Positions 1 to 2,921 of a DNA stretch of 64,000 nucleotides are shown here, piece after piece; the stretch's first letter is position 1; every line of letters begins with the position of its first letter. The stretch comes from Flavobacteriales bacterium (GTDB lineage Bacteria > Bacteroidota > Bacteroidia > Flavobacteriales_F > PHOS-HE28): assembly GCA_024103275.1 (NCBI GenBank), contig JAGFIV010000077.1, positions 1 to 64,000 of the forward strand. The letters run 5' to 3'. The notes beneath the pieces are model-generated. The model saw only the letters and a program-made list of their open reading frames with translations, did not search any database and was not told the DNA's origin. The translations under genes were made by a program, and so were the position numbers.

Positions 1-430
1 CGGTAGGAAGGCGGCCCGGTCGGCCGCCTTCACATTTTCCCCGTGCCCAGCTGGTTGGAGCGTCCCGCACGGGGTGCGGGAAGGTCATCGGTCCGGCTCC
101 GATATTCTCCACGGTAGGAAGGCGGCCCGGTCGGCCGCCTTGACATTTTCCCCGTGCCCAGCTGGTTGGAGCGCCCGGCACGGGGCGCGGGAAGGACATC
201 GGTTCGACTCCGATATTCTCCACGGTAGGAAGGCGGCCCGGTCGGCCACCTCGGCAGTTTGCCCTTTACCGGGTGGGTGCAGATCCCGGGCGGGGACGCG
301 GGAATGTAAACGGTTCGCCTCCGATATTCTCCACGGTAGGAAGGCGGCCCGGTCGGCCGCCTTCACATTTTCCCCGTGCCCAGCTGGCTGGAGCGTCCCG
401 CACGGGGTGCGGGAAGGTCATCGGTCCGGC
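1..430 (+). repeat. Tandem 111-bp repeats derived from a tRNA 3' half plus terminator
   Basis: Three exact-length 111-bp units lie at 1-111, 112-222 and 223-333, with a fourth partial unit at 334 to about 430. Each begins with a GC-rich hairpin, then has a D-arm-like AGCTGGTTGGAG, an anticodon-arm-like stem-loop (stem CCCGC/GCGGG in units 1 and 4), and a T-arm (ATCGG, TTCGACT, CCGAT in unit 2) ending ATTCTCCA. No matching 5' acceptor strand (GGAGAAT-like) precedes the D-arm, so no unit can fold as a complete tRNA. Units 1, 2 and 4 are very similar, while unit 3 has diverged. The window starts exactly where a tRNA 3' end would finish, so an intact tRNA may lie just upstream. I infer successive duplication of a tRNA 3' part with its terminator. 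Confidence 0.7.
8..30 (+). terminator. GC-rich terminator-like hairpin of repeat unit 1
   Basis: A perfect 9-bp stem (AAGGCGGCC / GGCCGCCTT) with a 5-nt loop follows directly after the presumed tRNA 3' end and is followed by a short T-rich stretch (ACATTTT). Copies recur at 119-141 and 341-363, with a decayed copy at 230-252. It fits an intrinsic terminator of a tRNA gene upstream of the window, though the T-tract is interrupted. Confidence 0.5.
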
Positions 431-529: not shown

Positions 530-2002
530 ATGCACATGGACCGCCTTCCGTTCCTGTTGACCGTTCTGGCCTTTGGGGCGGGTGCCACCACGGTCCGCGG
601 CCAATCAGCGCTCAATCCCTTCAGCGCGGCCGGCAGGGCGGCCGTCACCACGTTCGTTACGGATTACCAATCCATTGGGATCAACCCGGCCAACCTGGGG
701 TGGAAAGGGCGCTTTGAAGGAAAGCATGTGACCTTCGGGTTGTTGGAGGGGGCTTACACGGTCCATTCGGATGCCCTCAAGCGTGCCGATTTTCGTGAAC
801 GCGTGCTGAACACGGACTTCCGGTTCACCGAACGGGAGCAGGAAGAAGCCGGGCGCATTTTCGCCAATGCGGGCGCCATGGCCAATGCGGACCTGATGTC
901 CATCGGACTCAGCTATGCCAACGAAAACCTGGGTGGCCTTGCCTTCCACGTGCGCGACCGCATCGAAGTGTCGGCCAAGTTCGGCCAGCGTATGGCGGAG
1001 ATCCTCTTCCGGGGCTATCGCGCCGATTATTTCGACCTGCTGGTGCTGGCAACCGGGGACACGGTGGCCAACTATGCGAACATGTCGCCGGACTCCCTCG
1101 CCATGGTGATCCTGGGCGTGGCCACCGAACCCATGTTGCTGGGGCGGGTGGTCAAGGGCACCGACATCGGCATGAACTGGTACAGGGAGTTCAACTTCTC
1201 CTATGGGCGGCACTTGATCCGTACGGACAATTTTGAACTTGACCTGGGCTTCGGACTGAAGTACCTCCTTGGCATCGGCATTGTGGACATCCGTTCGCAA
1301 GACAACCGGCTCGATGGCTTTTCATCCTTGTCCGACGACTTCCAGATCGATTATCAAAACGTGGAGTTCATGCCCGGGGCCAGGTTGACCGGGGGGATGG
1401 TGGCCTTCCCCAAGGCAGTGGGCAACGGCTTCGGTGGTGATGTGGGCATCAGCATGCTGTTCAACAAGGCCTGGAAGGTGGGGCTGGCGGTGACCGATAT
1501 TGGTGCCATCCGTTGGAAAGGGAATGTTTATAAGGCCACTGAAGGCAGCTTGGTGGACCTGGCGATCGGCGGGCTGGAAAACCTGGACGTGATCAGCGGG
1601 CTGGAGGATTTTGTGACAAACAGCGGTGTGCTGACGTGGGAGCGTGCCCAGGCACGGGTCCTTCCCTTGCCCACCACGGCACGCCTGGGAGCGGGCAAGC
1701 TGCTCGGTGAATGGGCCGAGGCGGGCATTGATGCGGTGCTGCCCCTGAACGATGCCACGGGCAGCTTGCGAAATCCGGTGTTCGGGGCCGGTGCGGACCT
1801 GCTGCCGACACGTTGGCTCAGGTTCAGCAGCGGCCTCGTGGTCGGGGGAGGCATGCCCCTGAAGCTGCCCGTGGGCCTCGCGTTCATTGCCGGGAATGGG
1901 ACCTGGGAATGCGGGCTGGCCTCCCGGGATGTGATCACCTATTTCACCCAAACCAATCCGACGCTGTCACTGGGTCTGGGGTTCCTCCGCTTCCGCTTCT
2001 GA
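530..2002 (+). CDS. Outer-membrane beta-barrel-like protein, DUF5723 type
   Basis: 490 residues. An N-terminal signal peptide (MHMDRLPFLLTVLAFGAGA, then TTVRGQ) is followed by a glycine- and aromatic-rich sequence of alternating strands ending in FLRFRF, as expected for an outer-membrane barrel. It resembles the Bacteroidota DUF5723 family, whose function is not established. Typical family features are an N-terminal motif about asparagine-proline positions (here SIGINPANLGWKG) and repeated 'G-G-DVGI' strands. The open frame runs upstream to base 74 through the tRNA-like repeats. I reject that extension because it lacks coding character; ATGs at 491, 503, 530 and 536 are possible, and 530 or 536 fits the signal peptide best. 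The next gene follows after 34 bases. Confidence 0.7.
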   Translation: MHMDRLPFLLTVLAFGAGATTVRGQSALNPFSAAGRAAVTTFVTDYQSIGINPANLGWKGRFEGKHVTFGLLEGAYTVHSDALKRADFRERVLNTDFRFTEREQEEAGRIFANAGAMANADLMSIGLSYANENLGGLAFHVRDRIEVSAKFGQRMAEILFRGYRADYFDLLVLATGDTVANYANMSPDSLAMVILGVATEPMLLGRVVKGTDIGMNWYREFNFSYGRHLIRTDNFELDLGFGLKYLLGIGIVDIRSQDNRLDGFSSLSDDFQIDYQNVEFMPGARLTGGMVAFPKAVGNGFGGDVGISMLFNKAWKVGLAVTDIGAIRWKGNVYKATEGSLVDLAIGGLENLDVISGLEDFVTNSGVLTWERAQARVLPLPTTARLGAGKLLGEWAEAGIDAVLPLNDATGSLRNPVFGAGADLLPTRWLRFSSGLVVGGGMPLKLPVGLAFIAGNGTWECGLASRDVITYFTQTNPTLSLGLGFLRFRF

Positions 2003-2036
2003 ACGGAAATGCGGCCGGGATCGGCTTCCTTTGCGC

Positions 2037-2921
2037 ATGGCCTTGCCCGCACACCTCGCCGCGCACCTGGAGGAGCTGCTTTCATCGCGCCAAGGTTCGG
2101 CGGCCCGGGTGTTGAAGGCCGATGAAGCCTACGGCGGCAGCATCAACGACACGTACCGCCTGGAGACATCGGCAGGACGCTTCTTCCTCAAGGTGAACGA
2201 AGCGGACCGCTTTCCCAGCCTTTTTGTCTCGGAGGTGAAGGGGCTGGAACTGCTGCGGAACGCCGGCGAGCTGCGGGTGCCGGAAGTGGTGGCACAAGGG
2301 GAGGTGGGCGACACCACGTTCCTGCTGCTGGAGTTCATTCCTGCCAGGGAGGAGGACCCCGGGTTCCAAGCGCGCTTCGGACAGGCCCTGGCCCGTCTCC
2401 ACCGGCATACGCACGGCAGCTTCGGGCTGGAATACGACAACCATATCGGGGTGCTGCGCCAGGTGAACACGTCACACAAGGATTGGGTGGACTTCCTGGT
2501 CCAATGCCGGTTGGAACCATTGGTGAAAATGGCCAAGGACAACCATCGGATCCAGGATGGGGACGTGTTGCGGTTCGAGCGCCTCTATTCCAGGCTCCCG
2601 CAGTGGATCCCGAAGGAGATCCCGGCATTGTTGCACGGCGACCTGTGGAAGAACAACTACATCGCGGCGCAGGACGGGCAGGCGGTGCTGATCGACCCGG
2701 CGGTGTACTACGGCCATCGGGAGATGGACCTGGCCATGACGCGGTTGTTCGGCGGCTTTGACCGCGACTTCTACGAGGCCTACCACGGGGAGGAGCCGTT
2801 GGAGGCCGGTTGGGAGGAGCGCGTGGACCTGTGCAACCTATACCCCTTGCTGGTCCACCTCAACCTGTTTGGTGGCACCTACGCGGGCCGCGTCGGGGCC
2901 GTGTTGCGGCAATACGTGTAG
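2037..2921 (+). CDS. Fructosamine/ketosamine-3-kinase family protein
   Basis: 294 residues with the protein-kinase-like fold of the FN3K family, which phosphorylates sugar adducts on proteins so that they decompose (deglycation). Visible motifs are the glycine-rich GGSINDTYRLET, the ATP-binding lysine in FFLKVNEADRF, the acidic LLLEFIP hinge, the catalytic LLHGDLWKNN, and the metal-binding IDPAVYYGHREMDLAMTRLFGGF. All are well preserved, so the enzyme should be active. Length matches the family (about 290). A TTG at 2031 is in frame, but the ATG at 2037 is preferred. It is cytosolic, with no signal peptide. It converges with the PBP1A gene, whose stop is 3 bases away. Confidence 0.85.
   Translation: MALPAHLAAHLEELLSSRQGSAARVLKADEAYGGSINDTYRLETSAGRFFLKVNEADRFPSLFVSEVKGLELLRNAGELRVPEVVAQGEVGDTTFLLLEFIPAREEDPGFQARFGQALARLHRHTHGSFGLEYDNHIGVLRQVNTSHKDWVDFLVQCRLEPLVKMAKDNHRIQDGDVLRFERLYSRLPQWIPKEIPALLHGDLWKNNYIAAQDGQAVLIDPAVYYGHREMDLAMTRLFGGFDRDFYEAYHGEEPLEAGWEERVDLCNLYPLLVHLNLFGGTYAGRVGAVLRQYV

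Follow-up and report, generated by a model that had tools for sequence, protein, structure and literature searches.

Tandem tRNA-Ala 3' halves at a contig end of a Flavobacteriales genome: probable footprints of a GIY-YIG nuclease element that targets tRNA genes

A run of truncated tRNA-like sequences occupies the very beginning of contig C24 in a Flavobacteriales draft genome (G000, 137 contigs), which raises the question of where such fragments come from and how they came to be repeated. The stretch analysed here, referred to as the window, comprises 64,000 bp and starts at the contig end. Its positions 1–430 were reported by TRF as a single tandem array with a period of 111, 3.9 copies, 82% matches and a score of 620. 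A first-pass annotation, made from the sequence alone, had described three exact 111-bp units and a partial fourth; the array is real and its spacing exact, but the units are not identical. The same annotation had singled out unit 3 as diverged and units 1, 2 and 4 as close to each other, and pairwise identities agreed with this (Table 1).

Each unit starts with a terminator-like hairpin, followed by the D-arm, arm site, T-arm and 3' acceptor strand (ATTCTCCA) of a tRNA-Ala. The hairpin of unit 1 recurs at positions 118, 229 (degenerate) and 340, and is of the same kind as the terminator found behind the intact tRNA in relatives. Alignment to tRNA-Ala genes of the genus bore out the earlier description of the units as tRNA 3' halves with terminators: the 5' acceptor strand was missing from all of them, with units 1, 2 and 4 aligning from the D-stem and unit 3 from the D-loop onward, units 1 and 2 continuing through to the tRNA 3' end and unit 4 ending in the T-loop. 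The segment previously taken for an anticodon-arm-like structure turned out to be something else. The arm site of units 1 and 4 reads TCCCGCAC-GGG-GTGCGGGA, a perfect palindrome of 8 pairs with a 3-nt loop, which is 19 nt long versus 17 nt in a genuine anticodon arm.

Table 1 Features of the array and of its right flank in the window
Feature	Position	Strand	Basis or remarks
Unit 1: terminator-like hairpin and tRNA-Ala-derived right half	1..111	+	
Hairpin of unit 1, 10-bp stem, terminator-like	7..31	+	fold z -5.15
D-arm remnant GCCCAGCTGGTTGGAGCG of tRNA-Ala, first tRNA-like stretch of unit 1	45..62	+	alignment to genus tRNA-Ala
Palindrome TCCCGCACGGGGTGCGGGA replacing the anticodon arm, unit 1	63..81	+	
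Variable loop, T-arm and 3' acceptor strand of tRNA-Ala, ending ATTCTCCA, unit 1	82..111	+	
Unit 2: palindrome partly decayed, T-arm intact	112..222	+	104/111 identical to unit 1 (7 differences)
Unit 3: diverged, 3' end ATTCTCCA retained	223..333	+	88/110 identical to unit 1 with gaps; 84/111 ungapped
Unit 4: cut off in T-loop	334..430	+	96/97 identical to unit 1 (1 difference)
Palindrome TCCCGCACGGGGTGCGGGA of unit 1 found again in unit 4	396..414	+	
DUF5723 protein gene, right flank of array	530..2002	+	homology to G033; start codon from sequence
Fructosamine-kinase-family gene, second gene behind array	2031..2921	+	matches right flank in several other relatives

A functional tRNA or a known RNA family was considered as an identity for the array unit and rejected. 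A tRNA scan of the array, proposed earlier as a check, returned 0 genes with ARAGORN, which found no tRNA gene anywhere in the 64-kb window; a search of positions 1–1000 against Rfam at E ≤ 10 gave three weak hits, all of them non-tRNA; and the 5' acceptor strand is absent.

As the window opens at a contig end, a tRNA gene lying upstream of the array would be invisible within it, and gene order was used for placement. The product of the DUF5723 gene is 68% identical over 465 aa to that of the gene which follows the tRNA-Ala(GGC) locus in a relative (G033), and the left side of that same locus matches the genes ahead of tRNA-Ala(GGC) on contig C9 of the source genome. Since the right flank in the window and the left flank on C9 both match the G033 locus, the array belongs to the right of tRNA-Ala(GGC), which upholds the earlier placement downstream of a tRNA gene. 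The C9 tRNA gene and the C24 array would accordingly be parts of one locus as predicted by synteny, the C9–C24 join being unassembled. An intact tRNA ending in ATTCTCCA, which had been expected upstream, is absent from the source assembly, where TCCGATATTCTCCA (≤ 1 mismatch) matched only the array's three places. The tRNA-Ala(GGC) on C9 has the unusual 3' end TTATCCTCCA, and the contig stops 288 bp further on. These last 288 bp (G000:C9; positions 1567–1854 of locus L002) seemed, by eye, to be richer in A+T than the genome; the DNA behind this tRNA gene may mark the boundary of an island or come from the mis-joining of a metagenome contig.

When the array was used as a DNA query, 41 of 45 genomes of the genus gave matches, mostly at genuine tRNA-Ala genes. 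Full elements were present at tRNA-Ala(GGC) in three relatives (G042, G020 and, with an N gap, G017). On the left side of an intact locus, the host promoter leads into the tRNA 5' half, a TCCCG/CGGGA palindrome and a short leader. The centre holds a complete tRNA of the same identity, its terminator and a gene of ~85 aa encoding a GIY-YIG protein, while the palindrome appears again on the right, followed by the tRNA 3' half with its terminator. The nuclease stop codon falls in the following tRNA-like stretch or inside the palindrome itself. In the dead halves the loop is replaced; the cassette nonetheless retains an intact tRNA. The source genome has the complete plan at tRNA-Pro(GGG) (locus L078), the only one of its tRNA genes with a 5' half and a 3' half bearing palindromes; no other element was found at the 33 distinct tRNA genes checked in 32 of its loci. 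Matches at Thr/Gly and Lys/Lys in this check were rejected as adjacent intact tRNAs.

Dead copies were also encountered in other guises. At locus L039 (1116–1196, minus strand) a palindrome-bearing dead tRNA-Ala copy was called 'tRNA-Val(cac)' by ARAGORN, and elements of this sort can produce false tRNA annotations. Upstream of tRNA-Asp at L213, the left dead copies bear a palindrome near the acceptor strand and a different one in the D-loop; with palindromes at two places, loop replacement is not confined to the insertion point.

All four element proteins tested carried the Pfam domain PF01541, and the columns Y, I, Y, G, R, H, T, E and K were invariant in 30 aligned proteins. The closest solved sequences were 1zg2 (E = 3.6e-13) and 1ywl (UPF0213), with SLX1 chains following from 3.4e-6; SLX1 is a structure-specific nuclease. 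Identity of the GIY-YIG domain is settled, at the level of sequence matches, by Pfam and PDB. NCBIfam offered no name for the nuclease, and PHROGs no family at E ≤ 1e-3 for any of the four proteins. Cargo of a phage or plasmid was considered and rejected: tblastn gave 0 matches in 50,697 phage records and 0 in 72,556 plasmids, and IMG/VR yielded a single locus. Across 76 usable pairs from 14 Chryseobacterium genes, the nuclease had a median dN/dS of 0.12 (range 0.05–0.49), and by this codon-based measure it is under purifying selection.

A profile of 3 proteins matched 36 of the 45 genus genomes at E ≤ 1e-3. One scan of species genomes with it produced 79 loci, mainly in Bacteroidota, with others in Verrucomicrobiota, Balneolota, Ignavibacteriota, Marinimicrobia, Zixiibacteriota and one Magasanikbacterium; a 30-protein profile matched 205 of 392 Bacteroidota genomes at E ≤ 1e-12, with up to 13 matches per genome. 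The set analysed comprised 89 loci with 119 nuclease copies, made up of the 30 loci returned by the 30-protein profile search, minus the source genome's own locus, plus 60 from further down the list, and thus represents top scorers, not a random sample. An intact tRNA on the same strand lay less than 600 bp upstream in 73 of the 89 loci; seven loci were cut by a contig edge and nine were without a tRNA, at least five of the latter having palindrome-bearing or terminal tRNA-like pieces nearby, as judged by eye. About 15 kinds of tRNA were involved, led by Gly-GCC (13), Asn-GTT (13), Val-TAC (12), Asp-GTC (12) and Ala-GGC (8). A copy of the same tRNA's 3' half (≥ 11 nt exact) followed an ORF in 53 of the 73 tRNA-linked loci, and a CCG-core palindrome was present at 39 of these 53 copies; no 3'-half copy was detectable at the other 20 of the 73.

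Several loci of different character were also noted. Two small GIY-YIG genes of the source genome, L079 (G000:C69:43771-43992) and L080 (G000:C30:14967-15188), have no adjoining tRNA and sit among repeats of the type CGTCATTGCGAG..., perhaps another pairing of nuclease and repeat. At L224 a TCCCG palindrome lies inside a repeat of this type. Locus L028 (G000:C126:21835-21984) holds adjacent His-GTG and Phe-GAA tRNAs unlike the other His and Phe tRNAs of the source genome; the pair perhaps derives from a phage or a contaminant contig.

The palindrome was found to be closely tied to tRNA remnants. The pattern GAGCGTCCCGCACNNNGTGCGGGAAGGTCA (≤ 3 mismatches) occurred at 17 places in 10 of the 45 genus genomes, two of them in the window, against 0 places in the same 45 genomes for its reversed control, and every place whose locus was read lay at a tRNA-Ala copy. 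Perfect TCCCG palindromes (arms ≥ 7) numbered 99 in 85,408 bases of element zone versus 10 in 168,233 bases outside it, 8 of the 10 being by eye also in tRNA-like remnants. In the genus TCCCG...CGGGA was not in excess genome-wide (35 in the source genome versus 53 for a control pattern). A palindrome dispersed genome-wide, of the REP/RAYT type, was excluded by these control and zone counts.

Because choosing sites by the palindrome would be circular, pairing was assessed on arm sites defined, in the right copy, as whatever sequence separates the D-arm from the variable loop. Of 65 distinct arm sites, 43 had 6 or more outer pairs, versus 0.03% of shuffles. At least 5 were present in 46 of the 65, of which 37 start with TCCCG, and the 41 sites with at least 7 pairs comprised 22 different 8-base arms. 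Pairing is thus conserved while sequence varies; loops also vary among copies and genomes, with the arms remaining complementary. Counting against this pattern, 22 of the 65 arm sites were poorly paired; 19 had fewer than 5 outer pairs, some of these being near-palindromes or having the palindrome shifted. The position of the palindrome differed between copies (anticodon arm, T-loop or variable/T region), and certain dead copies contained two (for example L216 and L059).

Individual tRNA genes were found in several states within the genus. Of 25 tRNA-Pro(GGG) sites, 8 contained nuclease sequence, in some cases broken or truncated by the end of a contig; 6 had only a palindrome-bearing left or right copy, 6 showed decayed traces by eye and 5 were traceless. 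A script scored 18 tRNA-Ala(GGC) sites, excluding the source genome's own and leaving out the nuclease-bearing locus of G017 with its N gap, as 2 with nuclease, 8 with dead copies only and 8 with neither; one of the last 8 (L057) has a weak copy by eye. Occupied, footprint and unoccupied alleles therefore coexist at one tRNA gene within one genus.

Arrays comparable to that of the window occur elsewhere. Contig G042:C281 begins with a 4-unit, 122-bp array of tRNA-Pro 3' halves without a nuclease, which is a twin of the window array, and left-hand arrays were seen at L117, L208, L213, G042:C151 and in G024. In a tree of 102 nucleases, built from 86 columns for the 102 rows and with many open forks, the two nuclease copies of a locus were sisters at L124, L125, L126, L127, L129 and L172; at L148 one copy clustered with a copy from a different genome. 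Sister copies at one locus fit local tandem duplication better than repeated arrival, and tandem duplication, as invoked in the first-pass annotation, accounts for the multiplication of units. The tree also had 22 changes of tRNA identity over 68 labelled rows, a figure that has no shuffle control and is not counted as evidence. Locus L035 has a second, broken nuclease copy behind the right half. Five nuclease copies with an exact 315-bp period lie behind tRNA-Asp at L203 (G338:C1:2945594-2947093), and three with a period of 358 bp behind tRNA-Arg at L197 (G309:C224:649-1610); both arrays are intact and probably recent.

The window array is probably the set of nuclease-less right-hand footprints of a tRNA-targeting element at tRNA-Ala(GGC), tandemly multiplied. 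No nuclease remnant was found within the window (best E of 2.2, at chance level), so the array's membership in the element is argued from the palindrome, the tRNA halves and synteny. The anatomy, distribution, palindrome and footprints of the element were read directly from the loci described above. An intact element inside a tRNA gene would leave the host gene as a 5' half and a 3' half, with the cut loop in each half replaced by a TCCCG...CGGGA palindrome. We infer the cutting, the homing and the role of the palindrome: the nuclease may cut the same tRNA gene where it is unoccupied, and the cassette would then be imported by repair from the occupied copy, with the replacement tRNA sustaining the host while the old gene decays. 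Counting against the proposed cutting, the intact tRNA of the cassette has the very sequence expected of a target. The lack of a phage or plasmid carrier in the records searched, and the 20 tRNA-linked loci at which no 3'-half copy was detectable, count against the reading as a whole. The direct repeats of ~80–100 bp that flank the nuclease gene (tRNA 3' half and terminator) could recombine, and the nuclease might prompt this, as SegB does in phage; units would thereby multiply, and later losses of nuclease genes would leave short tandem repeats like those in the window. As the nearest solved structures are UPF0213 and the structure-specific SLX1, our guess is that the nuclease may target those loops of tRNA genes that can form hairpins, and that the TCCCG hairpin may represent either a form of the site which escapes cutting or a binding site.

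The array might also consist of attR-like tails, left when integrases repeatedly inserted phages or integrative elements into the 3' end of tRNA-Ala; repeated integration at one attachment site was one of two origins named in the first-pass annotation. tRNA 3' ends are classic attachment sites, and the altered 3' end of the tRNA-Ala(GGC) on C9, with seemingly A+T-richer DNA behind it, would be compatible with integration or with a mis-join. The copies, however, start at the D-arm and have the foreign, element-specific TCCCG/CGGGA palindrome in the place of the anticodon arm, and it is a GIY-YIG cassette, and no integrase, that lies between copies in relatives. The same anatomy recurs at about 15 tRNA identities, and relatives have arrays without an integrase-bearing island (L037), which makes this origin very unlikely. 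In a reading without any mobile element, slippage or unequal exchange would have duplicated a tRNA gene in tandem, the copies would then have decayed, and the nuclease gene would be a passenger. This would agree with the near identity of units 1 and 4 (96/97) and with the sister nuclease copies at six loci. It leaves unexplained why one TCCCG/CGGGA palindrome is common to different tRNA identities and why the GIY-YIG gene is constant and under purifying selection, and we regard it as unlikely.

Less likely still is mobility of the palindrome itself, in which a SLX1/UPF0213-like nuclease would handle hairpins and insert TCCCG hairpins into tRNA loops in the manner of RAYT/REP. The kinship of the nearest solved structures points in this direction, as do palindromes in different loops, sometimes twice per dead copy (L216, L059), but the palindrome is confined to tRNA remnants and not in excess genome-wide (35 versus 53). 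Least probable of all is a device serving the host, with amplified or decoy tRNA pieces guarding translation against tRNA-cutting toxins or defences. Amplification of tRNAs driven by SegB shields phage T6 from Septu (PMC13096335); the pieces amplified in our array are not full tRNAs, the acceptor strand being missing and the anticodon arm replaced, and the lone intact tRNA is not amplified in the source genome.

Beyond the locus itself, we put forward a wider interpretation, plausible yet tentative, which falls a little short of our being inclined to accept it: the footprints would belong to widespread 'break-and-replace' selfish elements of bacterial chromosomes, in which GIY-YIG homing destroys a tRNA gene and supplies a substitute on which the host becomes dependent, with the TCCCG/CGGGA hairpin as signature and worn arrays as common scars that break assemblies. 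If true, a class of small selfish elements has been overlooked in one of the best-sequenced bacterial phyla, because the genes have ~85 codons, the pieces resemble pseudo-tRNAs and the arrays tend toward contig ends. It would also provide a natural homing nuclease that attacks an essential gene and carries the rescue copy for it, across about 15 tRNA identities. Many incomplete tRNA copies next to genuine tRNA genes, and some erroneous tRNA calls there, would be explained as well. The palindrome offers something concrete to test about which sites the nuclease selects and which it spares. We found no published description of the element in open-licence PMC papers, the scope of our literature search, and call it undescribed only provisionally.

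Parts of the element have counterparts in known systems. Its nuclease shares PF01541 with UPF0213 and SLX1, the closest solved sequences, and those UPF0213/SLX1-like proteins are not known to us as tRNA-linked elements. As in integrative elements that use tRNA sites, displaced tRNA 3' fragments lie beside an intact tRNA; unlike there, the fragment begins at the D-arm and its arm is altered, and no integrase was seen in the element loci read or in the array units. Free-standing GIY-YIG homing endonucleases of the SegB type occur in T-even and other phages, within phage tRNA clusters, and SegB, which cleaves tRNA genes internally, causes segments of tRNA DNA to be amplified (PMC13096335). The element resembles this SegB type in that its nuclease, too, is of the GIY-YIG family and associated with many different tRNA genes; unlike phage-borne SegB, the element had no match in the phage and plasmid records or in PHROGs, and its loci have split tRNA halves and palindromes. 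Another close arrangement is that of fungal mitochondrial mORFs (Allomyces, Glomus; PMC3630166), endonuclease genes inserted at the end of essential genes (atp6, atp9, cox2 and nad3, with a GIY-YIG type in atp9); the insert supplies a new 3' end, and the native one is displaced downstream of the nuclease gene. In 53 of our 73 tRNA-linked loci the nuclease gene is likewise flanked by a functional gene end and a displaced one. Compared with mORFs, which occur in protein genes of fungal mitochondria, the element resides in tRNA genes of bacterial chromosomes and often has a whole replacement tRNA, a displaced 5' half as well, and palindromes at the broken loops.
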